Assembly: GCA_032622095.1 (NCBI GenBank)
Contig: CP136065.1
Span: 95,735,343 to 95,799,342 of the forward strand
Source: Siphonodentalium dalli
Lineage: Eukaryota; Mollusca; Scaphopoda; Gadilida; Siphonodentaliidae
Length of the DNA stretch: 64,000 nt
Direction of reading: 5' to 3'
The notes beneath the pieces were generated by a model, which made no database searches, was not told the origin of the DNA, and saw only the letters and a program-made list of their open reading frames with translations. Numbering within the stretch: position 1 is the first letter of the stretch; every line of letters begins with the position of its first letter. Of the stretch, positions 14,485 to 39,335 are shown piece by piece. The position numbers were made by a program, and so were the translations under genes.

Positions 14485-17400
14485 ATGGTTAGTATTATGT
14501 CGATGAACTGTAGAGGCCTCGGTGACCCAAAGAAACGCAGAGATGTTTTTAACTATATAAGAGAGAACAAATATGGGATATATTGTTTACAGGATGTCCA
14601 TTTTACTACAACAAATGAGCAAAGAATTAGGACAGAATGGGGATATGAGGTCGCCTTTAGTTCACATACAGGCTCGTCGAGAGGGGTTACAATTCTAATG
14701 AACAATAACTTTAGTTTCAAACTATTAGATACGAAAACTGACCAGGAAGGTAACCTCCTTATAATTCGTGCGGAAGTTGAAAACCAATTAATGACGCTCG
14801 TTAATATTTATGGTCCAAATACTGATGATCCTTCCTTTTATAAATCAATTAGAGAAAGTCTTGAGCAAATAACAGATGGCAGCATAGTCATATGTGGGGA
14901 TTTCAATTTAGTCCTGGACCCAGACCTCGACCTGTTAAATTATAAAGCTATAAATAACCCTAATGCACGTGATGAAGTACTTTACATGATAAATAAGCTA
15001 GATTTAGTCGATATTTGGAGATACAATAACCCAAAGGAATGCAGATACACATGGCGTCGGACCAACCCATCCAAACGTGCACGTTTGGACTTTTTCCTAA
15101 TCTCTCGATACCTGATACCAACAGTAGAAAACTGCGATACACACACTGGATATAAAACAGATCACTCTGCGATATCGTTACAATTGAAATTTAATAATTT
15201 TGAAAAGGGTAGGGCTTCTGGAAATTTAATAACTCATTACTCAAAAACAAAGATTATATAGAACTAGTAAAGGATACCATAAATAGAGTTGTTAAACAAT
15301 ACTTGAAAAATGGACGGGTAATGGTAATTTAAATATGAATAATGTTGAATTTAACATTGATGACCAATTATTTTTCGAAACTCTCTTGATGGAAATAAGG
15401 GGCGCTTCCATACCATTTTGCTCTCATTTATCTAAACTAAGAAAATGTAATGAGACTAAATTAATTGAACAAATAACAAATCTAGAGAATATTACAACGG
15501 AAAAAGAAAGTCTAGAAATGGAGAAGCTGAAACGTGAATTAGAAGCATTACGAGAAGAAAATTAAATGGAATATTTGTTAGATCACGTGCTAGATGGATT
15601 GGTGACGGGGAGAAGCCAAGTAAATATTTCTTAAATTTAGAAAAACGAAATTTTACGTCTAAAACCATCCAAAAATTACAGGCAGATAACGGAGACATGA
15701 TATATGAACAACATGAAATCCTTCAAGAGACAAACCATTTTTATAAACGTCTTTATAAAAACCAAGATGCAGAAACACATTCCTTAAACATTGATAACTT
15801 AATAACTAACGTGTGTGATATAAATGACAAAGTTGAAATAAATAAATTAACGCTAGAGACTGGTCGATGTTTGGAAGGAGAAATTAGTTACAGCGAAGCG
15901 CTAAATTACTTGAAAAAAAATGAAAAATAATAAATGCCCTGGAAACGATGGATATTCTGTAGAGTTTTTTTAATTCTTCTGGCGAGATGTTGGAACCTAC
16001 CTGGTCAGATCACTTAACTACGGCATGAAAGTTGGAAAACTATCTGTTACACAGAGGCAGGGAATAGTAACACTCCTCCCCAAAGACAAGAAACCACGAC
16101 AACTTCTTAAAAACTGGAGACCAATATCCTTATTAAATGTGACATATAAAATTCTCACAGGAGTCCTATCTGAAAGATTAAAACAAGTTTTACCATTTCT
16201 AATACATTCAGATCAAACCGGATTTATATCTGGACGGTATATTGTGGAGAATATTCGACTAGTGATGGACATGATGCTACATACAAAGCAAAATAAAATA
16301 CCGGGACTCTTGCCATTGATAGATTTTGAAAAAGCATTTGATTCGATATCCTGGAAATTTATATACAGTGTACTAAAATACTTTAATTTTAGTCAACCAT
16401 TTATCGATTATATAAAGACTTTATATTGTGATACTTCATCATGTATAAATTTAAATGGGCAAATATCAGACTTTCTCAACTTAGAGAGAGGATGTAGACA
16501 AGGCGATCCAATATCCCCATATATTTTTTTATTATGTGCAGAAACCCTTGGTATTATGGTAAGATTATCAAAAAACATAAATGGTATCAATTTTGGTAAT
16601 ACGAATATAAGAATGTCGCAATATGCCGATGATACATCTCTTTTCCTCGATGGGTCACCAGAGTCTCTAGAAGCAGCTATGAAAGTACTTGATAACTATA
16701 AATATGTATCGGGTCTAAAAATTAACTATGATAAAACACACGCAGTGTGGATTGGTACAAAGGCAGACAGCACGGAACAGATATGTGACCGATGGAAATT
16801 AAACTGGAATCCAGAAACCTTTAAAATACTTGGTATAGAATTTCATCATGACACTAAGCGTATGATTGACATAACTTTTACAAACGGGCTTATGCAATTA
16901 AAGAACATACTAGCAATGTGGAGTAAACGTAACCTAACTGTTCTCGGTAAAATAACTGTTGTCAAATCGCTAGCTATTTCAAAATTAGTACACCTGTTCC
17001 TTGCACTACCGAATCCCACAGATGAATATATAAAAAAATTAAATAAACTGCTCTTTGGTTTCATTTGGAACCAAGGTCCAGATAGAATAAGTACAAAACT
17101 GCTCACCCAGAACTATGCTTCTGGTGGGTGTAAAATTATTGATATTAAGAATTTCATAAAATCTATGAAGATATCATGGGTTAAGCGAGCTATCACACAA
17201 CGGGCTTCCTGGGTTACAGTTTTCGAACACTCTTGTAGTATGTTTTGTAATAGTTGGTATCTAATGTCATCTTCTGGAAAGAGGTAGTAAATGCCTGGAT
17301 TCTGTACTGTGACAAACTAGAACCGGTGAGTCAATGTGATCTCCTCACTACACCTTTAGTTAGATTCGCGGATACGGTAAAACTGGTGAAGCCACGATTG

Positions 17401-18221
17401 AAACTGTTCATGACTGATAAGCTTATATACATATTCGATTTCCAAGACAAAATTTAGGAAAGTACCTGCCACATGAAGAATTTAACGCTCTACACAAAAC
17501 AAACATCGACTTTCTAACTTTTAACGGAATTGTAAAATCAATCAAGAAAAGAGATAAATCTTTAAGTAAAAGCGACAGGGTTTTGCGCCCTCGTATACCA
17601 TTTCACTTAATAAATTTACTTGCTCCGAACAGTGCTAAATCCACGTATAAAACAATGTTACCAATTGACTCACCCCATAAACAAATAAGTAAATGGGAAC
17701 GAAAGTTGAACCGAACATATAATGTCGAGTTCTGGACTGAAGTATATAGATGCCCATTTATTTACGTCACCGATACCAAACTTAAGTGGTTCCAATACCG
17801 AATAAATACACATACCATCGGTACAAAACAACTTTTGAAAAAAATGAAAATATCTGACGACGACTCATGTACCTTCTGTAAATCTAATACTGAATCGATC
17901 ATTCACATTTTCTGGGAATGTCCAAACATACAATATTTTTGGAATACGGTCAAAAATTGGGTATTTCAATTACAACTCACACGTGAAACTGCAATATTTA
18001 GCAGCTGCCCTGGAAAATATACCAGTCCTTGGATAATATTCCTTCTTATCTTTGTTAGATATCACATTTATAGATCAAAGATGAATAACTCTATGCCAAA
18101 CCTCACCGGACTTAAAAAAGAACTTAGTTTATATTTCCAATCTGAGCGTGTTTTTTATTATAATAAAGGTCAATACACTAAATTTAAACAAAGATGGTCT
18201 TATCTAGAAGAACTATTTTAA
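14485..18221 (+). pseudogene. Tx1/L1-type LINE ORF2 (endonuclease, RT, zinc knuckle), frameshifted
   Basis: The endonuclease is long and well preserved (14,485-15,240): MNCRGLGDPKKR near the start, VICGDFN near 14,890 and TDHSAI near 15,160. After a linker in broken frames, the RT (16,025-17,287) shows NWRPISLLN, DQTGFISGR, IDFEKAFDSI, GCRQGDPISP and YADD at 16,622-16,633. The C-terminal part (17,583-18,221) carries CTFCK...HIFWECP, the cysteine-histidine knuckle of this group. NWRPISLLN and the ECP-type tail fit the L1/Tx1 branch. There are breaks near 15,250, 15,560, 15,930, 17,285 and 17,460. No ORF1 is seen upstream, so the copy may be 5'-truncated. It could have been active fairly recently because long frames survive. 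Confidence 0.85.
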
Positions 18222-19144: not shown

Positions 19145-21632
19145 CTTTAATATTGACCTACTCAATTTCAACTCGCATACAAAAACGAACGATTTCATAA
19201 ATAACATTTTCACAAGAGGATTCGTGCCAAGGATAACTAAACCTACTCGAATGGCTGATCATTCAGCAACTCTCATCGATAATATATATACCAATAACCT
19301 ACAAGGCGAATGTAAATCTGGCATAATCACATGCGATGTTTCCGATCATTTCGGCATATTTTATTCAGAATCTAACCAAACGAGACAAAACAGCACCAAT
19401 AATAACGAAGCTATCACTAATCAAAGAAGTTTTAGTCATGATAACATAATTAGATTCAAAAATCTTTTTAAATCTTGTACCTTTGACTCCGTCACATCTT
19501 GTAGAAGTGTCGACCAAGAATCTTCTTAGATATCTATATGAATGCATATGAACTAGCTTTCCCCATCAAAAGTCGACATATACCCAAAAACTTCATAAAA
19601 CGCAATCCTTGGATGACAGCTGGATTGATTAAGTCAAGTATTGTTAAGAACCAGCTATATTTACACAAATTGAATAAACCCACGGAAACGAACGTAAATA
19701 AATATTTGAGCTATCGTACCTTATATAATAAACTAATCAGAAGGAGTAAAAATATATACTATACAAATATTCTAGAAGTAAATAAAAATAACTTAAAGAA
19801 AACATGGGAAATACTTAAGGGTGCATTGAAGATAAATGGAAACACAAATAATAACCCCAAGACCTTTACCGAAAACGGAATAGAACTTGAAAATTCCAAA
19901 CTCATATCGGAAAAGTTCAATGACTTTTTCTCAAAAATTGGGCGGGAAACTAGCCAACTCAATGAACATGAAAATGACTCTCATTTTACAGATTTTCTCC
20001 ATAACCGCAAACCAGACGACATCAATTTCAAAATAATTCCGACCTCTATACAGGAGATCATCCTCACATGTTTCTTTATGACTGGGAAAGTATCAAGGGA
20101 TTTCAATGGTATATCAACTAAACTTATCAAGGAAACAATTGAGGAGATAGCCCTAGCATTATTGCATATTTTTAACTTGTCCTTAGAGTATGGAATAGTC
20201 CTTAACAAAATGAAAATTTCTAAAGTAGTCCCGATCACAAAAATTAATACCACTCATGAAAATTCCAACTACAGACCTATCAGCATTCTTCCAGCTATCT
20301 CTAAACTTCTCGAAAAAATAACGCATAAACGATTATTAGACTTCTTAAATGAACAAAACATACTCTATAAACACCAATACGGCTTCCGTCCTATTCATTC
20401 AACCTTCCATCCTGTATTACACCTCGATCAAGTTGTCTCAAATAATGACAAAATGACAAGAGATTCCACTTTAGCTCTATTTCTCGACCTCTCAAAATTA
20501 TTTTACATTATAAATCACGATATTTTACTCCACAAACTAGATCACTGTGGTATACGAGGCACAGCATACTCATGATTTCAGAGCTATCTGCAAAATAGAA
20601 GGCAACATGTTGAACTCAATGGTATTAAATCTAAATTAACGGAAGTGACGTGTGGAGTGCCCCAGGGATAATTCTGGGACCGATAATTTTCTTAATTTAC
20701 GTTAACGATATGTCAAATTCCACAACCATGGATATCTTATCATACGCGGACGATACGACTCTAGTAACTGGTGGAAAAAATGACATCCTTGTAGAAAGTT
20801 ATGTGAATAATGAGTTACGCAACATATTTGCTTGGTGCTGTAGCAATAAGTTAGTGATCAATACTAAAAAAAAGCAACTATATGCTAATACACCCAGAGA
20901 ACAATGATGACAAATGGAACTTTATAAAGGTTTACTTAAATAATACGGAACTAAACAAGATAGGAAATCTTGAGCACGAATCCTCCACAAAATTCTTTGG
21001 AATCCATATAGATGAAAACCTGATTTTCAAAAAACATGTGTCCTCTGTTTGTTCTAAAATGGTGAATGACATATACCACATCAATAAAGTTATACACTTC
21101 TTTCCTGGTAGCGCACATAAAAAATTATATTATGCTCTAATACATGCTTCAAAAACGCGCGATATGAGTTTTATGTAATAAGAAATATAGAAGCCACACA
21201 GAACCTCTCTTTAAAAAAGCAAATATACTCAAAATCTACGACATCCACAAAGTACAAGCGGCTGTTTTCATGCATGATTGGTATCATATGCGCTTAATAG
21301 AATCATTCACCGACATGTTTACCAAACGCAAAACCGGACCAGACACCCGGCAAAAGCACCCACTATTTAAAAAAAAAACAAGAACATCTTGGTCCCAACA
21401 ACTACCATTCCATTCTTTTCCAACTATATGGAACAACTTAGATTACGAATTTACATCATACCAATCCAGACACACATTCAAACGGCGTTTACATGCCGAT
21501 TGCATTAACAAATATGCTGCAACAATTAAATGCAACAATCAAAGATGTCCCGAGTCAGATGTCACTCAGCACATTCCTACTCGACTTTCAAGGAACATCC
21601 CACTGACAAGAAAGAGACAAACCATCGAGTAA
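19145..21632 (+). pseudogene. CR1-like LINE remainder (endonuclease end, RT, C-terminus)
   Basis: The frame resumes with DFNIDLLNFN, then ITKPTR...HSATLIDNIY and CDVSDHFGIF (19,160-19,350), the end of an APE endonuclease. The next frame (19,538-20,575) covers the linker and RT: NYRPISILPAISKLLEK, YGFR, and LDLSKLFYIINHD where AFDTINHD is usual, so the conserved AFD aspartate is now tyrosine. A stop replaces tryptophan near 20,573 and a one-base loss follows GVPQG near 20,670. YADD is kept at 20,743-20,754. The C-terminal part (20,882-21,632) has FFGIHIDENL and ends with a CNNQRCP-type cysteine motif. Inactive. Confidence 0.8.
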
Positions 21633-21639
21633 CCAATAA

Positions 21640-22204
21640 GCGATTTATCTAGACGTATACCCTCCATGTATATAACCCAGTTAAATGCAACCATTGTGTG
21701 ATACATAATTATATAGCCGTGCATTGTACAAGAAATCTTGACCGCCTATCGTAACATCTTTTCTTCTTCCGGTGTCATGTCGGGGATGTCAACAAAAATC
21801 TGCTCCCGATAAAATACGTCAAAAAGTAACATTTTAGGTTCGACAAGTACATACAAATTCGACAGGAATGTTTGCTACGTAGGTAGGAATGATTTCGGGC
21901 GGATAAAGGACATGGTATGTGTTTCTTTTCGGTATTTTGAATAGTTTTATGTGGCATTGTTATGAAAAGCATGAGACAAAATAGCACGCAAAACAGGAGA
22001 CCAGTCACGCTAATCTAAATGCAATCAACTGCACAAAGGATCCTCCAGTGACAGAGTGACCGTCAATTATTACTGATTGCTCGATTGGACTCAGTTCTCG
22101 GCCAATACAACGTGTTGTATAATATCTATGTCAGCGCCCCCAGGTGACAAATATTCGCGGTAAATAAACATTGGGTTGTTTCTTCCAATTGTGAACTTTG
22201 TCGA
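21640..22204. other. Spacer; right part may be the 5' UTR of a LINE
   Basis: No gene is seen. It separates the end of the CR1-like LINE from the short ORF at 22,205. If that ORF is a LINE ORF1 start, part of this stretch is its 5' UTR. Confidence 0.35.
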
Positions 22205-22363
22205 ATGGGCCGACGAAAACCAAGAAAGCGAGATCGCCATTCCGACTCATCCACGGACGAAACTGATATATCTGGTCCTACCATACTATCAACGAGTACG
22301 CCGATCAGAAAGGGGAAAATCCAAAACAATATGGATGAATACGGTAAAAATAAAGATAAGGCC
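22205..22363 (+). pseudogene. Probable N-terminus of Tx1/L1-type LINE ORF1, cut by a transposon
   Basis: An ATG-started frame of 53 residues begins MGRRKPRKRDRHSD and is basic, then serine/acidic, as LINE ORF1 N-termini often are. It stops exactly where the left inverted repeat of the 10.45 kb element begins. On the far side of that element (32,810 onward) a coiled-coil/RRM ORF1 starts. Joining the flanks leaves a one-base frame difference, so an indel must be assumed. The ORF1 identity is inferred from composition and position. Confidence 0.45.
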
Positions 22364-22393
22364 TAAAAAAATTATACGTTTGTTTCCGCTAAC
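22359..22393 (+). repeat. Left terminal inverted repeat of the 10.45 kb element
   Basis: 35 bp, pairing with 32,775-32,809 with a single mismatch in the A-rich part (A here, C in the partner). Confidence 0.8.
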
Positions 22394-22481
22394 TCGACCG
22401 ATCGTATTTTAAACCGCCGACTCTAAACTTTTTATTTTGAAGTTTTTTTTTACGGTGTTCGTTATTTAGTATGAATGAATG

Positions 22482-22514
22482 AAACGCGGTATTACCTCTA
22501 GTAATACCGCGTTT
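22482..22514. repeat. 14 bp-arm hairpin upstream of the transposase-like gene
   Basis: AAACGCGGTATTAC (22,482-22,495) and its perfect inverse (22,501-22,514) flank a 5-base loop. It lies about 70 bp before the chosen start codon and inside the left end of the element, so it could be a subterminal transposase site or part of the promoter or 5' UTR. Confidence 0.8.
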
Positions 22515-22586
22515 AAACGTACCCCGGTAACTAAGACCAAACCGGAAACCGGAAGTCTAAGTGGTGGGAGACAACTCGTGTTCAAA

Positions 22587-25500
22587 ATGGCCGAGGAACA
22601 CATTCTTCTTGGCCTGACTTGCCACAAATGCGGTCATGGCGATAAACAGAAAGAGATAATAAATGTCAAATTATCAGACAACATAGAAAAAATATTTAAG
22701 TATATCCACAAGGACCATTCAGATTCTGTAACGGCGCAATGTCGGGTCAGTTCCGATGCGGAATTGTTCGTGGTGCCTATGGACGTTGTAGTTCGTCAGC
22801 TTGTCGAACATTTCGGAGTTAAATTCGTAGAGTTTACATGCAGCACGCAATCTACAAATGATGACAAACTCGACCACGTCGATGCTTTCAAAATCCTTTT
22901 AAAGAAAGAGATTTGTTTCACACCTCCAAAAGTGGCAAAACATCCAAGTTCAACTTCAACTTCAACTTCAAGGTAAGTTTTCAGTTTTGTTTTAAATACT
23001 GAACTTTTTTGAACTCATACTTGATTTGGATATATACGTTCAACTCAAAAGTATAAACCAATATGGTATGATAGGGCTTCTAGACGTTTCGTCCCATAGT
23101 GCCGTATGCGCCGCAGTCGCCATAAATTGTCTGACATATTAAATACGTCTGCAACCGCCCAAAATAATAATATATAAAGCACCGACCCATCCCACCACCC
23201 ATAGTATATTATGCGCCCGTAGAACGTCTGCAACGACCCACAATAATATAAATAATATATATATTAAGCGTTCGCCCACCACCCTATCCCACCACCCATG
23301 GTGTCGTATGCGCCTGCGGCCCCGGGAATATGCGCCGCAACGAAACGACCTGTACCATATGATAGTATGGGTGATTCATTCAGTCTGTCATTGAATGTCA
23401 GGACTCAAACTATATAGGTTTTGAATTTTATAAATATATTTTGACAAATATACAAATATACAATAATTCAGTCCAGGGGTGGGGTTGGTTGGCAACTTCA
23501 TATATGTCTGCACCCAATCGAAAAGGTTTATATTTCGGGATTGTATGTTCAAATCAGGAAAGGTACCTTTCCGTCAGTGTTTGTCCAGTTTTTTATATTT
23601 AATAACAAGAATTTAATATACAATTATTATTTTTTATTCCAACAGCTCAAAAGGACGACCGGTACTGGTGTTAAATTCAAAGGAGGTCATGTTCAATGAC
23701 CTGGCACACCTTCAAAAGGAGATGGAGATGGCCTTTAATGCCAAATATGAAGCAGACACAACGGGGTCATACATTACCCAGGTATGGTTTAATAATACTA
23801 TGGAATATATTTTATATAAAACCATTACATTGTATATTTTGTCCTTGTATTATTAATATAAATATAGTATTATATTTTAATTTAATATATTTAAATATAA
23901 ATGTGGATTATAAATTTTAATATTTAATAGAGAGTTGGCAGAATTGAAATTGAATATTAAAATTTAATTCATATTATTCCCAAATTGCATGTTCCTGCCA
24001 ATACTGACAATACTGGGATATATCTTTGGACTGTATTGTGTACACAGATATAATTAGAGCCCATTTAATCATATTTTTTATTATTAAAATAGTCAGTTTA
24101 GGGAGACATGTATATAATATATTAAAAGTAGTATAAACTAATTGCTAGAATGGATGGCGGCCGAAGGCAGGTATAATAAAATATTAATATATAAACACTG
24201 TCTTAATATATTTTAAAATGCATACAAATTTAGGGATTCATTCATTTCAGGTAATTACAAATGCTCTCTGGTATATAACAAACGACCATCTCAAAATAAA
24301 AGATGCGGCAAGACTGAAATCCGTAAAACCAGTGCCAGAATTCTTCAGTAGCTTCCAAGACCGGGACGACTATAAGGCGAAGAAGATTAAAAAAAGGCGA
24401 ATGGCAACTGGAGAGATACACAGTCATGCCCAGGTAAAGTCTTTTTACCATGTCTAAATGTGTATATATAAAACAATACTAGCACATGTTATATCATAAC
24501 GTCGTGTGGGGGCCTTGTTGGCTAAATCAGTTAATATTATTTAATAAAGGTCAATACTAAGTTATTTCGCCCTCCAGTGCTGGCGATGAGGGTTCGAATC
24601 CTGATGTATCCATCAACTTTGTCACTCGATTTAATTATCTGGCACCTGGAGGAGCCAATGTCTCACCAATGTGTTGCCGCATACTGTAGACAAGTTTATC
24701 TGACAGCCAATTACATTTAATAATGTATGTTTGTTGATTCCCTCCACCACTAAACCTGGCAAAGTCGCGACAAAGCTGCGATATGGTGTTTAGATAGGTG
24801 TTGAAAGTGAGTCATGTGATATAAATTAACCCCAATGTTGGCCAATCAATCATACTAGTATATCATGATGTTGTCACTCTGTTGTGTCTGTAAGTACTAT
24901 AAAATTTGGCTACATTGTTTATAAACTATTTGTCTTTCTTTCTCAAATAGGCACTTTATAGCATTCTCATGAAGCCGGTCATGAAGTCGACTGTTGCTTG
25001 GTTAAGACTCCACACAGAAGTAAAGTTGCTCGCTGACTGTCTTGATAGCTATAGAAATTTCTTAGAAGAAAAAAACCTAGAAATTCAGACGAATCACGCC
25101 ATGGATCATCCTGTTAGACCTGTATCTGAAAATATAACTGCCGAGTTCAGAAAACCTTCAAGATGCATTGACAAGATCTATGCTCGTTTAGATGATGCAA
25201 TCAAGGAAAGTAGCGAAGTGTTCATTGATGAAGACTTGCATATTGAGAAGTGCTTCAATAACCCTATGCAGCGGTCAAGGTAGTTTGAAAGTTTGTTACG
25301 TTGTTCTATTAAAATTGTTTTTATGTTGTTTTTAGCTTAAATTATCTCGACAAAGTCAAAATAAGCTATTGTCATCGAGTGCGCGGAAGTCTGTCAGTCT
25401 GTCAACAATTTCCTTCCACACAGGCCACAGGTCACATTTATCATCCAATCATCACCAAATTTCATTTGCTTGTTCATTTCATTTTTCTTAAAACTTTGCG

Positions 25501-28500
25501 GGATGACTTTAATAACAGCAGCCCTCTTGGACTTGGGCTTAACTTGACAAATTGCCATGGTTTGTTGTCTGGCATCAGTCTGTATACATGTACGTTCTAA
25601 CATATTGCACCAAATTGCTGCTGAGCACAATCAACACGATACAATAAATATATTACAATTCATTGTCTTTCATGTAACTAATTTTAACTTGATATTCAAC
25701 ATAAATTACAGAAATACAACATTAATTTCATGAAAACAACTGTTTGTCATGATAAGATACAGTGTCATTGACACTTTCATTTATATTTATAATGCGAACA
25801 GTTAGTGTGTTTTCTACACAGTTAATGTTAATTCCCAGTTTGGTTTGATTTGCCTTTCTGCTATTAAATATTTCCATTTTATTTGATTTTCATATATTGT
25901 TTGCATGTTTACTTTTATACTTGAAATTGTTTGCATGTTTACTTTTATACTTGAAATGATTTATTTTTTGTTTTATCTTTTAGTTTTAATTTTATTTTAG
26001 TTTTACAATACATATGTCGGATGAGAGCAACACAATTGGTTGAAAGATATTGAGATGAAGGTACCGTATTGACAAAGTACATGTAGTCATTCTGGTTGAA
26101 TGTTGTAAAGCTGAGACACCAGTTTAATATTAAATCATATTGACATTTACTTTTGATGCATGTAGTAGTTAACTAAGTCGTTGATCATAATCCTGACCAT
26201 TCCAACTTTAATTTGCAACTAGTTTTTTATATTAATATTTAAATAATAGTTAATGTCATCGAAGATTTTAAATACTATAATTTTGCCTGAAGTTTTCATG
26301 TTAAAGGATCCATATCTGTACACTCTATTTTTATACAGGTATTTTTGGGGGGAAATGTTTTCTGAATACTATAAACAGATGTATGTGTAATATATGCACA
26401 CTTCTGATACATATTTCATTCTTCATGTTGGGTTTACTGCTTTTTTCTCAGGTTTTACGAGGACCTTCAGCTGTCGGTGCCATTTGACCTCTATAAATAT
26501 TCTCCCGGTGGCAGCATAGTGACCTCAGTTTGCCTTGTTCAAGTGGAGGAAGTTCGCACAGAGGATGAGATAATGACACAGACATCTCGATTTATGGTTT
26601 CGGAGGCTTCAAAGCAGCATTTTAAAGAATATCACACCCGATATCAACGAAAGCTTTTCCGAGATCGACTAGGAAACATAACCTCAGGTATTAACCCATT
26701 GTATATAAAACTGGATATTCATCACCATTGAAGTAGGTAGTGATCCTGATTCATTCTTCATTCATTTGTAAGGACATTGAGAAATAAGTTCAAGAACCAC
26801 GCATTGGTACCTACAGTGATTTGATGAACTTATTACTGCAACATATTGTTGTGCGTTGTTTCTAAAAATGTATGGGATATGTATATGATATCATGGATTC
26901 CGCTACACCGACAGGGGGTCCCTTTGACATATTTTGCTTAATCGGTCCATCCCTGTTCTGTCCCAAGTTATGCCGATAACAATGTTTCTGTGTGTGTTTA
27001 TTTGATATTAAAATAAAAGGTCACTTGCTGTCACTTGCGCTGAAATAATTGAAATAATGCAACAAAACCCATTTAAACCAGCCAATCGAAGATTCAAGTA
27101 TTGTTTTGTCAATTTTATCATGGGATAGATGTCAACATCAATTATCAACAGGGGAAGAATTTGTTCAGTATCATATGTATTAGTTTAATTCTTGTGGGAA
27201 AAAAATCTCCTGTCTTTGACTTTGATGCGTTTGGGGGGGGGGGGGGTGGTATCATGACATAAGGGCCCCATTCCCCTATCCCATAGCAGAAACCCTGATG
27301 ATATACTGTATATATTTATATGATTATCTGGACTATTTTAAATATTTATTTCATTAAATAAGTATAGAACATTCAAAGAGATGCGTTTTAGGCTGTCTTC
27401 TTTGACCGTTTGTTGAAGGAAACCAAAGTTTTCATGTTTCTACTTTATTTTTTATACAGTCCAACCAGGTGTGGCAGATCTCATTTACAGAGAACTTGCG
27501 CTTGGTGCGTCACTTGCTGCCCATCCGATTACAGCCGAGAGAATGCGATTGATCTTTCTTGGAAATCATAACTTGATAGCAGACATGCGCCACCTCAACC
27601 CTGGAAGAGCTGGGAATGCATATGATGAATTCTTTACCGAAATGGAGAAGGTAATTTATATAGTTTAATAAAGGGCTCCGACTCTCCTTGACTCAAAATA
27701 ATGAAGACTAGTTTAGCCCTCCTTAATTCAATCGGCTCCACTTAATCTCCCAGTTTGTATGTAAAATGTAAAACTAGAGGCATATGGCTTTTCTGTGTGG
27801 ATTTAGGGAGGGTTGTTGTAGATCACAAGGTGATTTTCAAACAGACAGGCCTATAAATGTAGTACAATCCCATTATGCTTGGAGACAATATATTTATAGT
27901 TTAGTTTCAGGAGCCCCACAAAGATATAACATTATTTCGGTTGTTTCAGATTGTTGAAGAGGCAACAGCCGCTGATGATCGCCGCCACAACATCGCCCAC
28001 CTTGCTAGATGGATATCGATCAGGGACCTAATGAAGGAAACCGAAGAAAAATGCAGTAGTGATGTGGCAGTCCCTTCGAAACAGCTGGTTCACCTTCAAT
28101 TTGCTCCCAAGAACCCATATTTAAATACAGCATTGGCCTTCACATCCAGAATAAAGGTGTGTGTCAGACAGACTAAGACTAAAATAAGTCATTAATATGT
28201 GTTAGAATGTCTTATTTTCAGAGGAGTCATATCTGAATTTATAAAGTTCATTGCAATTTATTCAACGTACGCTGTCAGGCATATGTTAAAATAAATTTGA
28301 AAACTTTAACGATTGCGATGGGGTTCATAATGGGTATCAATTCTTGCCAGTGAAACCAAGACGAGTCAGACACGGGTAGCGCGTCTGGACCGGACGCGCT
28401 AGACTTTGCTCGAGTCAGTGAGAATACGACAAATTGGATGGTATCATACAGCAAGCTACACACAGACTTTCTTGTACTTTACAATTTTTAGACCAAAAAG

Positions 28501-31500
28501 CCTGGTGCTGTGCGTGTTTAGCGCTACGTATGAACTAAGCCTCAGATGATTCAGATCTGATATAAGTCTAATATTCAGACATTATCTATGAACATTTCTA
28601 GGTCCAGTACAAGATTCAGAGAAGACAGTTGCGTCAAGAACATGTCGATCAACATTACACTGGCGCCCAATTTAAATATATACGGGAGCACGCTTTGGAG
28701 CTTGGTAAAGAGAATGTCATACTGTTGTTTGCAGATGATAAGGCCAAGGTACCTATAGGCAATCCAGGTAATAATATTTAATTATTTCAATGCCTAGTAC
28801 CCGCTGTGGTAGTGCTCACTGTTATATACATATAAACACTATCATATTATTACACCAATCAAAATATATGCGTATACTAAAATGAAATGAAAAATATATT
28901 GTCTTTGAACAGTTTCTCTTCTCTTCTCATTTCAGGACTCCGAGTCTCAACGGGTGTCCGGGGGAAAAAGACGCTTACCCCATCTGTCACCGAACTAGTG
29001 GCACTTGACCATGACATGACAAAGTGTTCGCTGACTCCTTCAGTTAATTTACTTTGTGACCTTCCGAACACATCAACTGGAAGCTTCGTTCAAGGCCGTG
29101 TCATAACAACGATCAATGACTCGGTTTTCGAGTGCAGCTCGCCATGGAGACATGCGACTACCTGGCAGAAGATTTTGCACAACTACGACCAGAAAGTGAT
29201 GATCATTTTCACAGACGGGGGAACTGATCACAGGTAAGATAAGAGATACTTTTATTCCAATCAAGACCCCTGTGTGGGAATATACAATCACAAGGAGCAA
29301 TTGCTCCAACAAACAAAGCATGATTTAGATGATTATAACAATGTAATAACATAAAATACAGAAATGATAACGGTATGTTAAAACAAAATATGATGGTGGA
29401 AACCTCATATGGTGTTATTTTGCGTTGTTTGCGTGACTCACAGCGTACTAGGGGCAGATGCAACCAGGGACATTTAAGCCCTTCCCCGTACCCTCATGAG
29501 AGACGACGAGAACAACAATACATCACCATGATTGTCTGAATGAAGTCAAAATCTTCATGACATATGCCTATTGTTATGAGGCTATTATAAATAGCCTGAT
29601 CATTAAATATTGACCCAAGTGAACTATGGTATGTTGTTCATTACAAAGCGTGCCATAACCGCACAGACATGATGATTTTCATTGTTCATCAATAGGAACA
29701 ACCTCGAGTCGGTGAGGCGCTCATTGATCTGCCTCTTCAATGCGTTGGACCTGGACATGTTGGCGGCAGGGAGATGTGCGCCAGGCCAAAGTGTTACCAA
29801 TCCAGCAGAGAGGGTGATGTCCATTCTGAACCTGGGTCTTCAGAATTGCTCCCTTGAACGGTATGGATTAACCAAATGTTGAGACTTTTTAGTAGTGATA
29901 TCGACATTCGAAAGTGTTGTTTAATATATATGTATTTGTCACACCGGTAACATGATACAGAAGCTACACTCTTCGGTCCCTATTGTATACAGATCAAGAA
30001 AATATTTTGTTGACAAACTAATACATGTAGTAAGCACAGAATATACAAATAGGCATATGTTCAGCTTCACGTAAAGTATAAATGAAATGTAGTTTATGTT
30101 ATACAACTTTATGTGTAAAGATTCACATCGCGTTAAAACAGCCCATATTATCATTTAGATGCTTACAGTGCCATAAAATATTACATTTGAGTCGAGGAAC
30201 CCATATGGGATATGCCTCTATCACCAGATATCGCCAAATTAATTTAATGACAAAAATTATTTAAATTATAGTAATAATACCATCGGCCTTGACCCGAACA
30301 TGCCACAAACTTCGGTGATTCGATGGCGTTTGGGTTTATAAAAGGCTAATTTATGCAATTTTGGGCATACCATCAAACTGAAAACGTAATTAATATAAGT
30401 AATTTAACACATTGGATTCCAAAATAATATTTTTGAAAAATTAGTGTTGTAACTGTTGTTGTTGTTTCTAGAATTCCGCTCTAACGCGAAGAGTCCCTTT
30501 AAAACCAACGGTCTACCATATTTTATTCAACAGTGAAAAGATGGACCATATGAGTGAGGTAATCGTAAAAGGGTGTGGCTCCATGAAGGAGATCCGGAAG
30601 CAACCGAAACTCAAAGATGCCTGGGAAGCTGCCTTGACTCCCGTAAAACAATGTGTCAAAGTGCGGTTTGAGAGGTTGAAGCTGAAAGATCAACCAATAG
30701 AGGTGTTGGATTCCATCCCGATTGCGGATATTGAGAAACTGCAGAGCATATCAAGATCTCTCTTCGCCTCCTTGGACCCTCATAATGTAAGCATATCACA
30801 GTGATGATCACACTGTATTAAAATTGTATCCATCTGTTGAGCAGTTCTTGGGTTCTTTTTATTTAATTATTATTTGTTTTATTATTGCTATAAATTCCAC
30901 CCAATATTGTTTACCAATGTGTCAACTAAAACGAGATACAAATAAAACTTGGACATTGATCACTCTGGAATGATGCAGCTCATTTTAGGATAAAAATTAA
31001 ACATTTAATATTGCAGATAACCAAGGCCTCGGCTATGAAGGATCCAGAGTATGTAGCCTGGAAAGCAGTTCATTGTCGCGAAAGACAATACATGTTTCAA
31101 GTACGAAAGTGTGAAAACAGAAAGTGTTGTAATCCTGTCCGCTCCGAGCAGAACAGGCTATGGATCCCTGATCCTGTCATCGATTCATCAGATGAAGCAA
31201 AGAAGAAAGGAGGAGAGCACTATACACCATACACAAAAGTAAGGAAAAATTGTATTGCACACGATGTTGGCAATAACATCAAAAGGTGCCTGCGTGATAT
31301 AAATCTTGAGACAGCCATTTCAAGGGGCTCCTCGCGTTAGAGCGGAATTCTAGAAATATCAACAATTACTATTACTTCGTGGTAATCTCGTGGGACAGAA
31401 AAATACTATTTGCTATAATTTAACTAATTTTTGTTAATTAATTTGGCGTATTTGGTGAAAGAGGCATATCCCATATGGGTTCCTCAACTCAAACGTAATA

Positions 31501-32548
31501 TTTAGGGCACTGTAAGCATCTAAATGATAATCTGGGGCTGTTTTAACGCGATGTGCATCTTTAATACTTTAATATGATTTTCACCCACCTTTTTCTGCGA
31601 ACACATGCTATTCAATGACATATAAATAGTAATATTCATACCAACTATCAACCTTGCCAAGTTTTAAATGTTTTCAATATACAGATGAAGGGTGTTGATA
31701 CTACAGAAGATGGCAGACCATCGTTGGTAGCAAAGCCCCCCAAAAAACCAGCAGTGAAACGGAAACAGACAGCACCTCCAAGTTCTGAAGTGACAGAGGT
31801 CAAGGTCGACGTTGACGTAATTGTTCCGATGACGGTGCAAAACTCCAGATATATCATCAATTGCACAGAGTGCAACAAACCTAGAGTGGTATACTCCCGT
31901 CATAAGGTATGTCTTATTCTATATATCCTTTGTCATGTAAATCTAACTTGACACTGTTGCAAAGATTTTGATTTAAAAATAGAACAGTTTGCTAGACTAG
32001 TTTAGTTTTGTTTAGATATATTCAACATCTGTATTAAATAACCCTAACCCCCACTTCCGAAGAAAATAGGGGGTATACAGGGGTATACTGAATTTTTCAG
32101 GATTCATCATTGACATGGTTCATCTGACCATACTATTCTGTGTTTGGACCTATATAAATTTACATCAAAAAAATTATTCAATGTTGAATTGTAGTTTAAT
32201 GTACATCATTTTTCTCTGCTTTACTTCTAGCTAACAGAAAGAGAACAAGTGACAGTGGTGCAGGTTCTCGAAGCGTACGACTACACTTGTGGTGCACAAT
32301 TCTGTCCGCCAGACCACCCGCTCAAGAGTAAAATTATTTCCCGGCCAGGAATCGGCTGTGCGGACCCGGTGGAAATTCCATATTATTCATGTGGTCTCGG
32401 CGACGCCACTTGCTGTGTTCAATGCGGGGAGTTTGACGCAGAAGTTAAACCTGCATTACGGAAATGTTATAAAACAGTTACCCCGATCTGTGCCAAATGC
32501 ACTGCTTCCGGTTTGACCCCAGTTGTCGCAAGACCCTACGGGAAGTGA
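22587..32548 (+). CDS. Putative DDE-type transposase-like protein, 1103 aa, 14 exons
   Basis: Exons: 22587-22972, 23646-23781, 24251-24433, 24951-25279, 26452-26687, 27460-27650, 27950-28156, 28602-28767, 28936-29233, 29696-29860, 30534-30786, 31017-31238, 31685-31906, 32231-32548. All introns are GT-AG, all phases agree and no stop interrupts. I chose the ATG in AAAATGG; an in-frame ATG at 22,479 lies by the hairpin. Seen: CHKC at 12-15; VILLFADDK (D601/D602); VALDHD (D636/D638); VMIIFTDGGTDH (D705); NPAER (E749); KCENRKCC at 881-888; CTEC (984-987), then ten more cysteines to 1088. Inference: D601/602, D705 and E749 could form an RNase H-like DDE site; spacings of about 103 and 44 residues and the NPxE context suit this. 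The C-terminus is probably zinc-binding. It could also be a domesticated host gene. I recall similar uncharacterised invertebrate proteins. Confidence 0.8.
24505..24720 (+). repeat. tRNA-derived SINE-like sequence in intron 3
   Basis: It has a pol III-like box A (TTGGCTAAATCAGTTAA near 24,519) and a near-perfect box B (GGTTCGAATCC at 24,591-24,601) at tRNA-like spacing. A tRNA-unrelated body with TGGCACCTGGAGGAGCC follows near 24,641. It lies in the intron between exons 3 and 4 of the transposase-like gene. Family and 3' end are not determined. Confidence 0.4.
25890..25958. repeat. Tandem duplication of about 30 bp in intron 4
   Basis: TTGTTTGCATGTTTACTTTT followed by ATACTTGAAA occurs twice in direct succession. 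Minor replication slippage product. Confidence 0.8.
30117..30493 (+). repeat. Left arm of an inverted repeat flanking exons 11-12
   Basis: It pairs with 31,329-31,565. Shared blocks in order: ACATCGCGTTAAAACAGCCC, ATCATTTAGATGCTTACAGT, GAGGAACCCATATGGGATAT and, at the inner edge, CTAGAATTCCGCTCTAACGC. The left arm has about 140 bp extra or divergent sequence between about 30,260 and 30,460. It lies in intron 10. Confidence 0.8.
31329..31565 (-). repeat. Right arm of the inverted repeat flanking exons 11-12
   Basis: Inverted copy of 30,117-30,493, located in intron 12. The inner edge CTCGCGTTAGAGCGGAATTC is only about 90 bp after the end of exon 12. The two arms probably are oppositely oriented copies of one short mobile repeat. 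Confidence 0.8.
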
Positions 32549-32556
32549 ACGTTACA

Positions 32557-32562
32557 AATAAA
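32557..32562 (+). promoter_or_regulatory. Poly(A) signal AATAAA
   Basis: AATAAA lies 9 bases after the stop codon of the 14-exon gene, implying a very short 3' UTR. A second AATAAA lies near 32,713. Confidence 0.5.
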
Positions 32563-32774
32563 ATGAAAGTTATTGTTCCATTTTAGCTTTGTTATATCTC
32601 CCTGAGATTGTGTTTTTGTTATATCTTTATGGGATAAGCAAATTAGCAATAATATGGCCTGTAATGTCTAAAATTTCCTTAAATATGACACAGTGAATTG
32701 CATCCTGAAAAAATAAAAAGATAAAAGAACAAAAAAAGATTTGCCTACCTACCTACCCATTTTTTGTTCAGTCC

Positions 32775-32809
32775 GTTAGCGGAAACAAACGTATAATTTG
32801 TTTAGGCCT
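32775..32809 (-). repeat. Right terminal inverted repeat of the 10.45 kb element
   Basis: Inverse of 22,359-22,393 (34 of 35 positions). It lies about 230 bp after the stop codon, so the gene fills almost the entire element. Confidence 0.8.
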
Positions 32810-33703
32810 AAACCAACAACAGTGCACGAGATGGCAGAAAACACACCTCCAGACATGAGTAACATGCATCAACAGCTATCACACATAGCACAGCAGTATG
32901 ATACAATCATAACAAAACTCAACACTGTTATGACTAAAGATTATTTTGATGGCATAATTAAAAACTATTCTCCCACTACTGTTGTGTTTGATAAAATAGA
33001 AGGAGCAAAGACAGAAATAATGGACTCGGTCAAAACGTTAGAAAATAGAGTGAACAAAATCGAGAATGAGTTGAAAAAATGCAGAAAGAGAAAGAATCAC
33101 TAGAAAAGGGCCTAGCCGAAGAGAAGGAAAAGGGACGCGTCGATCAAAAACTCTATAAGGATGAAGTGTCAACTCTAAAAAATAAAATCAACGACTTGGA
33201 ACAACAGGGAAGAAAAGACTCAGTAAGATTATTCGGAATAGAGGAGAAAGCAGGAGAAACCGCTGACGATTGTGCAAGAAAGGTATTAAAAATTATCAAT
33301 GACAAGATGGGGGTACGACTGATGTCAAAAGATATATCTATTGCACACACAGCTGGCAATATAAGACAATCAGAGACTAAAACGGACAGCAGAAAGATGA
33401 AAGTATTTCCCAGAGCTGTGCTGGTAAAGTTTGCCACAAGAATGGCAAAATCTGATGTCATCAAAGAAAAAAAAGAAGTTAAAAGGGCAAATAATCTCTG
33501 TGACTGAAGACTTAACAGCCATCAATCATCGACTCCTTAAAGTTGCTTTTAACCATCCAAGCGTTAAGAATACTTGGTCAGTTAACACTAAGCTTTTTCT
33601 CAAACTAAAAAATGACAAAATAGTGAAATTCTGCACAGAGGAACAGCTGATGGAAACTCTCACACCAGAACCCAATATGGATGTTCACGACAATCATGAA
33701 TAA
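32810..33703 (+). pseudogene. Tx1/L1-type LINE ORF1 (coiled coil, RRM, C-terminal domain), frameshifted
   Basis: Three overlapping frames make one ORF1-like protein. The first (to 33,103) has a long heptad-like helix ending RVNKIENELKK; the second (33,079-33,507) continues the coiled coil, then KDSVRLFGIEE, the start of an RRM-like domain; the third (to 33,703) has ISVTEDLTAINHRLLKVA, typical of the ORF1 C-terminal domain. Family knowledge: ORF1p is an RNA-binding trimer that packages LINE RNA. Frameshifts near 33,085 and 33,450-33,500 inactivate it. Its missing N-terminus is probably the piece at 22,205-22,363. Confidence 0.75.
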
Positions 33704-33714
33704 TATAATACTGC

Positions 33715-35440
33715 TGACTTTGCAAACAACAATCGGATCTGCATTCCGATCTATGTGATGTAGATACTTTTTGATAATTGCTTTGTGTATTGATGTATTG
33801 TGTAAATATGTTCCCTTTATTGTGTTTAATGGGGTAATAAATGGTCTAATTTAAGATGCACCATCACCGGGCACTACCTGAACAATGCTATCGCGGAAGA
33901 TCGTATGGAAGATAATGGGTTCGAACTTACCTATACCCACCCCTCCAATAAGGCGGTCTACTTATCGACCTAACGAACTATATTTTAACCTATACCTGAG
34001 CAATGCTATCGCGGAAATCAAATATGGAAGATAAATGGGATCGAACTTACCTATACCCACCGCTCCACTAAAGTGGTCTACTTATTGACCTAATGACCTA
34101 TATTTTAATGAGTGATGTAAAGGTTAAAATAGTCAAGTTGAAACAGGTTGAAACAGAAAAAAAACAATGCCCCTACGCTAATGGAATATAGCAACAGGTT
34201 ATTTATATATGTATTGCATGCAAGCGCTACATAATGGTAGACGACAGGAAGAATTTGCGATCGCATTGCTACGGGGTGCATGGTGGTGGAAAACCATCCT
34301 TGAAATTAAACTATATAATATAATATATCATGAGCAAGAATCTTGATGCATGTCGGATGCAAATGGATATCGATCTAAATGGATATTCGATAAAGAAAAT
34401 TGGCATTTTATCTATATACGCCATACACAGAGGACGCTGTGCACATCTTTTACACTGAAGTACCGCATATGTGATTTATTATTCTAATCAGATGTATACT
34501 TTCTGGCACAATTTAGTGCGCACATGTTATCATGCAACTGTCGCCGCGTTTCTTTCCGTCTGAAATGATCCGATAAAGAAAATTGGCATTTTAATAATAC
34601 ACGCCATACAAACAGGATTATGTGTACATCTTTAACGCTGAAGTACCGCATATTTGGGGGTTTTTATTCCAACCAGATAGATACTTTCTGGCACAATTTA
34701 GTGCACACATGTAATATGTTTTCGTGTAACTGTCGCCGTGTTTCTTTACATCTGACATGATCTCCACTTTTCGTTTTGCTTGGTTGGCGAAATTAGAGGC
34801 TAATATGTCAGACGGAGCGAGGCGTTCGGTTGATTAAAGCGTTAAACTAAATAAGGGAGATAACTGATTATATATTAGATGTATGATATTTTAATAGGAA
34901 TTTGGAGTGCTCTCCCTTACATGGACTTTCGTTGTTTGACACGGACATGCGCGTTCTTCATTTTACCTTGCTGTATCATATTGTTTTTGGAATCTTTTGA
35001 TATGGATGTACGTTGATAATTGCTTTATGTGTATATTTATGTAATGTGTAAATATGTCCGCTTTGTTGGGTTAACAAAATCATAGCTAAATTCGATATGC
35101 ACGTGCAATATGTTTAATTTATCGTGTAACTGCGTCGTCGCGTTTCATCCCGCCTGACATTATCTCCACTTTTCGTTACCATTGACTGGCGAAATTAGAG
35201 GATGTGGTGTTAGACGGAGTGAGGCGTGCGACGAGTTAATGCGTTGAACCAAATAAAAGAGACAACCAAATATATTTTCGGTGAATGAAATTTCATAAAC
35301 TATTTGGAGTGCTCTACCCTATACTGGATCTCCCATTATCTGACACAGACATGTGCTATTTTACATTACATTGCCTTATCACTCTGTTTTAACTTTGGAA
35401 CACTTTGATATACAGTATGCACTATAACTCTATTCCGCCC
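33715..35440. repeat. ORF1-ORF2 spacer built of degenerate duplications
   Basis: The 1.86 kb between the ORFs has no coding potential and repeats itself. The TTGATAATTGCTTT...GTGTAAATATG block occurs at about 33,769 and 35,013. The GATAAAGAAAATTGGCATTT...CGCATA block occurs at about 34,388 and 34,572. The GGCGAAATTAGAGG...GGAGTGCTCT block occurs at about 34,785 and 35,190. Such a long, duplicated inter-ORF region is unusual for L1/Tx1-type LINEs. Confidence 0.6.
33876..34111 (-). repeat. Two tandem 118 bp units with tRNA-like features (antisense)
   Basis: ACCTGA(A/G)CAATGCTATCGCG starts at 33,876 and again at 33,994. On the minus strand the first unit reads TTAGGTCGATAAGTAGACCG, with a GGTC/GACC D-arm-like stem, then AAGTTCGAACCC, a box B-like string. 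The T-stem does not pair, so it is not a functional tRNA. A SINE origin is possible. Confidence 0.35.
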
Positions 35441-35560
35441 GATAACCCACACCCATGAAACATCTACCCCTTTCATTTTCCTCTTTTCTTTCCGAATCCG
35501 ACTTAAGTTTGGTGGCATGTGGTGGTTCTTTTGTTGCTGTCATGATGTATCAATCAAAAA

Positions 35561-38500
35561 ATGACTATGGATAGTACAGGAATCAGTACCCTCAATGCTA
35601 GAGGTTTGGGTGAGAGCAGAAAACGTGCCGAGGTTTTTAATTATCTTCGAACACAAAAAAGCTACATTGTATGTTTGCAAGAAACACATTTTACGTCGGA
35701 CTTAGCAGATTCTCTTCAGGTAGAATGGGGTGGAGATATCTATTTTAACTGTTATAATTCTAGATCTCGGGGAGTAGCGTTTCTCTTTAAACGAAGTAAC
35801 GATTTTAATTATATAGTGCACAAAGTTGAAAAGGTTGGAAAGGGGATGGGGCTTGTTATGGATATAACTGTTAGTGGTTCTCGCCTCACGTTAGCTGGAT
35901 GTATGGGCCAAATTCAGATGATCCTTCCTTCTTCGAAAGTATAAAACAGGTAGTATCATTGGAAATGAATCTGCCATTATTTGCGGAGACTGGAACATTG
36001 TCATGAACCAAACGAAAGATACCAAATTTTATTCACATGACAACTGTCCAAAAGCTAGAAAAGCTGTTGAAGAATTGATGGGGGCCCAACGTTTATGTGA
36101 CGTTTGGCGTCGCTTGAAAAACGAATATACGCGATTCACTTTGTGGCCGAAGAACAGAAAAAAAAATTCCCGCTTGGATTATTTTCTAGTTTCGGAACAT
36201 ATCGTTCCGTTAGTTGATCAAATAGTTGTTTTACCAAAAACAGAAAACATTTCAGACCATTGCATGGTAGAAATAACCATAAAATTTAGCAATTTTAAAC
36301 GGGGCAGAGGTTATTGGAAAATGAATAACATGCTATTGGGAGATGAAATCTATAAAGCCGGAGTTAAAAAGAAAATAGGCGATGTTTTAGATCAATACCG
36401 AGTAAACAATGCAAACTTAGAGGGTCGAGAAAATTTTAGTATCAATGATCAACTCCTGTTCGAAATGCTTCTCGTTGAAATAAGAGGGTTTACAATAATG
36501 TTTGCTTCGAGGATTAAAAAAACTAAATTGAACAAACAGGCCAAAATAGAAAAAGTGTTAGAAAATTTACAAATAAATTACGATAAAAACGATACTGCCA
36601 CCTTGCAAAAAATAGAAGAACTGTCGACTAAACTACATGAGTATGAACTTGAAAAACTGAGAGGTTCGATGATTCGAGCTAGAGTAAATATTATAGAGGA
36701 AGGCCCTCAAAGTACTTTTGCTCTCTCGAAAAAAAACGCGTTTTGGAAAGCACGATATTCAAAATCCGTAGGAATGACGATTCTGTTGTCACGGATCAAT
36801 CTGAAATTTTAGTAGAGTTGCGAAAATACTACGAAAAACTATATTCAAAACAAACTTCTGAAATATCTGAAAGTGACTGGTCTGATTTCGCAAATACCAA
36901 CAATATAAAACGTCTTAGCACGGAAGAATCATTTGCCGCGGATGGCAAATTGACGGTAGATGAAATAACTAAAGCGTTATTACAGATGAAATGCAATAAA
37001 TCTCCTGGAATATGTGGTCAAGTTTTACGGTAGAATTTTTTAAATGTTTCTGGGATGAACGTAAAAAGTATTTACTTAACTCTCTAAACATGGCATATAT
37101 GAGCAGAACTTTGTCAATCACACAAAAACATGGTATTTTAAACTGTATACCGAAAAGTGGAAAGGATCATGCTGTATTAGAGAACCAGAGACCACTAACA
37201 TTACTCTTGGTCCCCTATAAAATTCTCACAACTGCCCTTTCGAATAGAATTAAACCTCTATTGGAAATTGTGATTAATAGGGATCAAACAGGATTTATGA
37301 AAGGGAGATTTATTGGAGAAAACATTAGACTGGTAGCAGATATGATCGATTTTACAGAGCTGAATAATCAACCGGGCTGTCTGCTTTTAATCGATTTTCA
37401 GACAGCATTTGACACCTTGTCGTGGGATTTTATACAAAAGACTTTAGAAGAATTTAACTTCGGTACATCTTTCATTAGATGGGTTCGTACTCTTTACACG
37501 GATATATACTCGTCAATCAAACAATATGGTCATCTTTCAGATATAATTAATATACAAAGGGGCTGCAGGCAGGGTGACCTCTATCGCCCTACTTGTTTAT
37601 TCTCTGTGCGGAGATACTGTCAACCCACTTACGAACAAATAATAACATACGAGGAATTAAAGTAGGTGATATTGAAATAAAGCTGACACAATATGCCGAT
37701 GACACATGTTTTCTGCTCGACGGTTCTAATCCCAGCATCATGCATTGCATCAACTCCCTAGAACGGTTTTCAGTAATATCTGGACTAAAGATAAATTTCA
37801 ATAAAACGAAACTTGTGTGGATTGGATCAAAACAGAAATGTCAGACCCCACCCCCTCCAGCTGTCCAGGACTGGTGACTACTTGCAACTTCAAATTACTA
37901 GGTGTTAATTTCGATCTTAATGCGGAAATTATTTTTCACGAAAACTACAGCAATGTGTATCGCCGCATCGAGGAAACAATTTCGGTGTGGAAAAAACGAA
38001 AGTTAACACCCATTGGTAAAATAACAGTAATCAAAACATTTATAATACCCCAATTGAACCATTTTCTCCTATCATTAGAAAATCCTAGTAAAAACTTCGT
38101 TAAGAAGTTAAATACGTTGATGTTTAGCTTCATCTGGGATAAAAAAAAAACGGATAAAATTAAACGCCAGCAACTAGTCCAGGACTACTCGGAGGGGGGG
38201 GGGGGGGGGGGGGGCTTAAAATGATCGATTTAGACACAACCATAGATTCAATGAAAGTATCTTGGATGCGAAGAATTTTATTTACAAATAGCATAACTAG
38301 ATTTGTTTCAAAAAATAACAAAAATACGAATATCAGAGAAATTATGCAATGAAGAATATATTTGTCGGATTTCAAAGAAAATTCAAAAATATAGGTTCTG
38401 GGTCGAAGTCTTATCGGCATGGACAAAATTTAATAAAAAAGTCAACGATTTCAATCGAAATGTGTTATTTCAGTCAGTGTGGTACAATAAGGATATTATC

Positions 38501-39335
38501 ATAAACGGAGACACAATATACATACATAAATGGGAAGCGAAAGGAGTGCATACGATTTTAGATTTTTTTGACGCGAACGGCAACATACTTCAAATCTCAC
38601 AATTCGGTAAGAAATTTTCAATTAAACCGAATTATCTACACTTCATATCTATAACCAAATGTATTATGAAATATATGAAATGCATGAATATATCGAGTCG
38701 AATAATAGCAAAAACACATAGACCTGGTATATCTGATAGCTTCCGTATTATTGCAGGAGTTAAGGGACATCAGTACCTAAAACGCTCAAGCGAAACAACG
38801 AAGTGGCTTGATAAGCTTTCAAATAAGTGGCAAGAATTTTCAATAAAAAATACAATATGGCCTAAATTGACAACTGTGCCGTTTAAATGTGGAACAATAG
38901 AGGTCAAATTAATATGGTTTCAATATAAAATTATTCATAAAATATTAAGTACCAATTCTCTTGTTTCAAAGTTTGTTAAGAATAGTACAAAAAAATGTGA
39001 TTTCTGCAATAAAGAAACAGAAACTATAAAACACCTTTTTTTGGGATTGTTACCTAACACAGATATTCTGGGAAGAGCTGCTTAATGCAATACATATAAA
39101 TATAACAGATCAAAATGTCTTATTGGGATTCTCGACAAATAAAGGTGCATTAAACTTCACGCTAATTTTCATAAAATATTACATATTTCGTTGTAAATTT
39201 CACTACCCCAATAAACCTACTGTTAGATCTTTCATCAGTTATGCAAAAGAATATTATACAATTTTCCAACATGTGGAAAATAAAACTAAATATGCAGATC
39301 GATGGGATATACTGAAACCTATACTGCACCCATAA
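35561..39335 (+). pseudogene. Tx1/L1-type LINE ORF2 (endonuclease, RT, zinc knuckle), frameshifted
   Basis: The endonuclease starts at 35,561 (STLNARGLGESRKR, CLQETHF) and continues after a break near 35,944 with the ICGDWN region near 35,980 and SDHCMVEI near 36,260. The linker spans 36,300-37,000. The RT (37,012-38,224) shows DQTGFMKGRFIGENIRL, IDFQTAFDTLSW, GCRQGD followed by a frameshift, and YADD at 37,692-37,703. The C-terminal part (38,303-39,335) has CDFCNKETETIKHLF and ends KYADRWDILKPIL. There are about seven frame breaks, one at a 21-G run. It is the partner of the ORF1 at 32.8-33.7 kb. Confidence 0.85.
38194..38214. repeat. G21 homopolymer inside LINE ORF2
   Basis: It sits where relatives have the codons for EGGLKM and shifts the frame before LKMIDL. 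Confidence 0.9.

Follow-up and report, generated by a model that had tools for sequence, protein, structure and literature searches.

The element and its gene

The stretch analysed here (the window) comprises 64,000 nucleotides of the genome of the scaphopod mollusc Siphonodentalium dalli (contig CP136065.1, positions 95,735,343 to 95,799,342; coordinates below are those of the window). It contains a single predicted gene enclosed by terminal inverted repeats (TIRs), which we consider likely to be an apparently autonomous, intron-rich cut-and-paste DNA transposon of the ISAzo13/Zator lineage. An earlier note on this DNA had described inverted termini of 35 bp, identical at 34 positions, around a gene of 14 exons and 13 GT-AG introns without stops. 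Its termini (22359-22393 and 32775-32809, inverted match 34/35 bases) are indeed present, with the refinement that the outermost A on the left and the outermost T on the right are part of a TAA target duplication. The element itself therefore runs from 22360 to 32808 (10,449 bp), and its TIRs, one base shorter per end than first drawn, are 34 bp long and match at 33 of 34 bases. The gene model was likewise reproduced: the TIRs enclose 14 exons separated by 13 GT-AG introns, and no stop interrupts the reading frame. Its parts are given below with strand and, in brackets, the evidence on which each rests.

22357..22359, no strand: left target duplication TAA (flank comparison across copies)
22360..32808, forward: complete element, 10,449 bp (TIRs, duplicated TAA target, empty sites in three LINE copies)
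22360..22393, forward: left TIR, 34 bp (inverted match and genome-wide recurrence)
22479..22972, forward: exon 1, start at ATG 22479 or, likelier, 22587 (gene model)
23646..23781, forward: exon 2 (gene model)
24251..24433, forward: exon 3 (gene model)
24951..25279, forward: exon 4, no other DNA-level copy in the genome (gene model, genome search)
26452..26687, forward: exon 5 (gene model)
27460..27650, forward: exon 6 (gene model)
27950..28156, forward: exon 7 (gene model)
28602..28767, forward: exon 8, first catalytic aspartate, DDK motif (gene model, alignment)
28936..29233, forward: exon 9, second catalytic aspartate, TDGGTDHR (gene model, alignment)
29234..29695, forward: intron 9, absent from 9/9 intron-10-bearing relatives, sequence at one genomic place (tblastn, genome search)
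29696..29860, forward: exon 10, catalytic glutamate, NPAERVMSILN (gene model, alignment)
30534..30786, forward: exon 11 (gene model)
31017..31238, forward: exon 12 (gene model)
31685..31906, forward: exon 13 (gene model)
32231..32548, forward: exon 14 with stop, C-terminal cysteine pairs, putatively zinc-ribbon-like (gene model, alignment)
32775..32808, reverse: right TIR, 34 bp, one mismatch against the left (inverted match)
32809..32811, no strand: right target duplication TAA (flank comparison across copies)

The reading frame comprises 1,139 codons from the ATG at 22479, or 1,103 amino acids (aa) from an in-frame ATG at 22587. The second appears the more likely start, since translation from the first would run through a perfect hairpin at 22482-22514. 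This likelier ATG is 227 bp inside the left end, and the stop codon (32546-32548) lies 260 bp before the right end; the earlier estimates of about 190 and 230 bp for these gaps were too short. The hairpin, which has 14-base arms (read, not folded), is located just inside the left end, 5' of the likely start codon and outside the 92-93 bases of left end retained by the short copies described below. An Rfam scan of 22000-33200 returned no match.

Target duplications, empty sites and copies

Searching the 2.23 Gb genome with the 34-mer TIR, allowing up to three mismatches, yielded 691 forward and 675 reverse matches; the same pattern read backwards yielded 0 and 0, so that the recurrence of the TIR is not a matter of chance. 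Flanks were compared in 21 sequences, comprising the window copy and 20 fetched copies taken from the top of the match lists, with both ends represented in 19. Identical 3-bp flanks lie outside GGCCT...AGGCC in 17 of these 19 (TAA in ten, TTA in five, TGA and TCA in one each).

The insertion in the window separates two halves of what we assign by eye to the first open reading frame (ORF) region of a long interspersed nuclear element (LINE), with endonuclease- and reverse-transcriptase-like ORFs, also assigned by eye, downstream at 36003-39085. When the flanks were joined and used as a query, three LINE places in the genome proved 95-97% identical across all 339 bases, and the junction at these uninterrupted places reads AAAGATAAACCAAC, with a single TAA. 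These empty sites are direct evidence for insertion with a 3-bp duplication. The interrupted LINE itself occupies 22000-22359 and 32812-39085; more retrotransposon ORFs on the same strand (endonuclease/reverse transcriptase like by eye) are found upstream, at 14485-18221 and 19538-20575.

Further copies with matching borders, target duplications and empty sites, for which the earlier note had recommended a search, are thus all present and support its view of the unit as a DNA transposon whose transposase gene is rich in introns and looks intact. TIRs that recur across the genome, duplicated targets, empty sites and an open DDE gene together characterise a cut-and-paste transposon with a transposase gene of its own.

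Among 16 copies considered individually (L055-L070), 12 are shorter than 3 kb (2.8 kb) and mutually 99.1-99.8% identical, and four measure 3.4-7.2 kb. These copies retain the left 92 or 93 bases, pieces resembling intron 1, and a final stretch that starts at about 32421, in the end of exon 14, and reaches the right terminus; these retained parts are 91-95% identical to the window copy. The main interest of the window element is as a well-preserved, parent-like copy; shortened copies with matching ends abound in the genome. Within intron 1, the segment 23142-23341 is internally repetitive and is kept by the short copies in several arrangements. At DNA level the genome offers no further match to exon 4 or to the intron 9 region, so that these two probes reveal no second full-length copy of the subfamily.

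At the protein level the family is much larger. The catalytic core gave 147 match rows in the genome (E value at most 1e-5, 150 of 165 candidates scored), of which three are the window copy itself and in which some genes are represented by several rows; about 40, counted by eye, fall within open frames of 700-1,156 codons. In these uninterrupted relatives homology extends to the edge of the fetched stretches, and the evidence on termini comes from the window copy and the short copies. Four of the relatives (L035-L038), two of them internally rearranged, are at least 99.4% identical over long pieces and have open frames of 898-1,104 codons, which suggests recent spread of an uninterrupted lineage.

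A DDE transposase under coding constraint

In an alignment of the window protein with ten relatives that are 27-47% identical, DDK 601-603, DGG 705-707, R711, AP 739-740, S743, N746 and R750 are invariant. The catalytic aspartates D601 and D705 are present in all 11 sequences and the glutamate E749, 43 residues beyond D705, in ten, L026 having Q instead. Cysteine pairs are conserved at the C-terminus of the aligned proteins and may form a zinc ribbon; for the window protein a zinc-ribbon Pfam model gave an E value of 1.8, below its cut-off. An AlphaFold model of one relative (L019) has an RNase H-like core of strand-strand-strand-helix-strand-helix-strand-helix, in which the three acidic residues lie where strand 1 ends, following strand 4 and on the final helix of the core. 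Within residues 421-710 of this model, 21 of 29 ten-residue blocks have a predicted local distance difference test score (pLDDT) of 78-94, the lowest block scoring 39. Foldseek returned five matches in the PDB at an E value of at most 0.001, all of them Mos1 transposase; a sequence search against solved structures found nothing credible (best E value 0.31).

Differences between the window copy and seven relatives are skewed towards the third codon position (for example, 44, 28 and 99 at the three positions over 153 codons against L009), and the core has therefore evolved under protein constraint. The seven are those of 11 relatives that provided a usable stop-free stretch, and because synonymous divergence (dS) was not computable for six of them, only codon-position counts were used. 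Sequence and model together present the protein as a DDE transposase of about 1.1 thousand aa, in which an RNase H-like core is preceded by a long N-terminal region and followed by a cysteine-rich C-terminal part.

Affinity to bacterial ISAzo13 transposases

To represent ISAzo13 we used a probe that matched 161 plasmid records; nine regions were fetched from 40 of these and eight were aligned, L084 being left out because it contains a stop. Profile comparison with hhalign gave 93.3% (E value 2.6e-7) for whole proteins of the window family against ISAzo13. For the core, values were 95.8 and 96.2% in global mode with two references and 72.5-95.6%, mostly 93-96%, in local mode with eight references, the minimum coming from a fragment of 121 aa. 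Forty column-shuffled cores scored at most 0.66% in local mode, as against 94.3% for the like-for-like unshuffled core. Single sequences of IS630, ISL3, IS1, IS6, IS110 and Tn3, one each, gave 0.1-2.4%, and an alignment of eight IS630 sequences, all from one query and sampling only part of that group, gave no profile match (0.5-2.2% over eight reference choices).

The original Zator paper of Bao (2009) is said to name Pfam07592, the ISAzo13 model. Zator is paired with bacterial ISAzo13 (TP36) in passages from two other publications (PMC5718144 and PMC10045372), the latter of which attributes 3-bp duplications to both groups. The catalytic domain of the window family is detectably related to bacterial ISAzo13 and hence to the Zator group. 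Passages from other sources report 44 Zator elements in bivalves (PMC10294476) and abundant Zator in C. elegans (PMC12239620). Pattern searches for relatives gave 63 matches in viral contigs and 28 in bacterial or archaeal genomes, none of which was confirmed.

Several observations weigh against this placement, or against the wider reading of the element as an autonomous transposon. A Pfam scan of the window protein (E value up to 10) found no family above threshold: PF07592 (ISAzo13) reached an E value of 0.12 and 11.8 bits against a gathering cut-off of 26.9. The same model matched one of 11 family members, and across the whole genome it made a single sub-threshold match (E value 0.208). This match is at a distance of about 2.2 kb from a member of the window transposase family, and the sequence that holds it (L075) reads as belonging to the same gene. 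Six single ISAzo13 sequences scored unevenly with hhalign (0.3, 0.8, 22.8, 75.1, 67.0 and 5.8%), so that the link to ISAzo13 rests on alignments. ISAzo13 and IS630 profiles match each other at about 50% and both groups are thus themselves related; passages from two publications place Zator as its own clade inside the IS630-Tc1-mariner group (PMC7386202, PMC8533490), to which the IS630 comparison above gives no match. The mean pLDDT of the L019 model is 58, and template modelling (TM) scores to Mos1 are low, at 0.14 by query and 0.32-0.33 by target. Flanks disagree in two of the 19 copies (TCA/TTA in one, AAG/TAA in the other), and splicing is a prediction of the gene model.

History of the introns

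To survey introns, the window protein was aligned by tblastn with the loci that had been fetched, which comprise nine sequences broken at intron 10 and 21 others. The nine (L009, L010, L012, L013, L015, L020-L023), which are about 55-76% identical to the window protein, all have a break where window intron 10 lies, and those with coverage at intron 8 (all but L012 and L013) have one there too. The other 21 are continuous at the intron 10 position, and 19 of them extend over the intron 8 position and show no break there; four (L025, L028, L029, L033) are broken elsewhere, after about residue 824-833. In a midpoint-rooted tree of 31 core sequences, labelled as intron or no-intron from these tblastn breaks, the window copy and its nine intron-10-bearing relatives form one clade (FastTree support 0.946). 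The intron-rich structure is thus a trait common to one clade; the family as a whole also has many uninterrupted genes. Whether the older introns were gained or lost would depend on where the tree is rooted.

Intron 9 has a different distribution. All nine intron-10-bearing relatives read through its position, and it was therefore probably gained in the lineage of the window copy; its removal restores the family-invariant D-G-G-x-x-x-R motif. An introner-like origin of intron 9 found no support, its sequence occurring at one genomic place only and not being repeated. Introns 10 and 12 contain oppositely oriented pieces of one repeat (30116-30503 and 31318-31563), with arms that are 85-97% complementary. 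This repeat matches other genomic places at 70-85% and was therefore inserted or duplicated within the introns.

Proposed mechanism and alternatives

How might such an element move? The host would splice out the 13 introns, yielding a transposase that would bind the 34-bp GGCCTAA...TTAGGCC ends, use DDE chemistry to release the element and then integrate it at cuts staggered by 3 nt at T-N-A, from which the 3-bp duplications would result. Elsewhere in the genome, matching ends number in the hundreds and, in the copies inspected, they mostly mark shorter elements. These were probably mobilised in trans by a transposase of the window type or a related one, or by that of a lost relative. The ends and their recurrence, the duplications, the empty sites, the catalytic residues, the coding constraint on the core and the homology to ISAzo13 are shown by the data; activity, splicing, TIR binding, excision and movement in trans are what we infer from sequence.

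It is possible, without being probable, that the family constitutes a separate, undescribed eukaryotic DDE superfamily, derived from ISAzo13-like bacterial stock and using the same cut-and-paste route but sister to Zator and outside it. Core identity to ISAzo13 of merely about 20%, a Pfam model that misses the family, the great diversity of the family inside one genome, and a protein of about 1,100 aa (as opposed to about 400 aa for two ISAzo13 proteins scanned) with large extra N- and C-terminal regions would all fit such a separation. However, 3-bp duplications together with affinity to ISAzo13 are precisely what the cited passages report for Zator. The earlier note had suggested a distinct DDE superfamily: the DDE transposase is borne out, whereas separateness is possible but not demonstrated, as the catalytic domain relates to ISAzo13/Zator. 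More tentatively still, one can imagine a history in which an undescribed superfamily of ISAzo13 stock lies outside Zator and one of its clades gained, inside the transposon, a spliceosomal multi-exon transposase gene and kept adding introns (such as intron 9, seen in the window copy only), while uninterrupted sister lineages multiplied in the same genome.

A PIF/Harbinger-type element is highly improbable: such elements also make 3-bp duplications (TWA) and those observed here are mostly TAA or TTA, but TGA and TCA occur too, in one copy each, the Pfam scan (Pfam only, no profile-profile comparison) found no Harbinger DDE domain, and the entire core aligns in order with ISAzo13. We reject, as barely credible, a host gene enclosed by chance inverted repeats or captured between transposon ends, recent capture having been the other suggestion of the earlier note: 13 introns are unusual for a transposase and two probes match nowhere else, but the 147 core match rows belong to a DDE transposase, about 40 lying in open frames of at least 700 codons, some copies are at least 99% identical to one another, the fold and catalytic motifs are those of DDE enzymes, and relatives with identities of about 55-76% have intron 10 in common, as well as intron 8 wherever the sequence covers it.

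Comparison with known systems

We therefore return to an apparently autonomous transposon of the ISAzo13/Zator lineage. What is new is an intron-rich, large-protein member of that lineage, possibly representing a sister superfamily; no intron-rich element of ISAzo13/Zator type is described among the literature titles and abstract openings listed, Repbase, where a consensus may exist, lying outside this search. An abundant transposase family missed by every Pfam model is now tied to the ISAzo13/Zator branch of DDE transposases, with an intact-looking gene model, exact ends, a target preference and empty sites. As 14-exon and uninterrupted versions of one transposase exist in one genome, intron gain inside a mobile element becomes directly traceable, with intron 9, which none of the nearest relatives examined possesses, as a promising case.

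Of the solved structures, those of Tc1/mariner (Mos1) best match the fold of the transposase model; the window family differs from the Tc1/mariner-IS630 group in making 3-bp TNA duplications and not the 2-bp TA expected there, and in having no profile match to the eight IS630 sequences compared. With ISAzo13 it shares a collinear catalytic core, in which D-x-K, HD, P, DGG and APG/PPG-x-S...N-x-x-E-R follow in order and the second D is separated from E by 43 residues in the window protein and 42 in ISAzo13. It departs from ISAzo13 in its low core identity, in its introns, in a protein about 2.7 times longer with additional terminal regions, and in falling below the PF07592 cut-off. Both Zator proper and a sister superfamily are possible homes, the comparison with Zator resting on its described features. 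Compared in this way, a 14-exon gene and a protein of 1.1 thousand aa are not mentioned for Zator in the PMC passages, whereas an ISAzo13-related DDE core and 3-bp target duplications are common to Zator and the window element.

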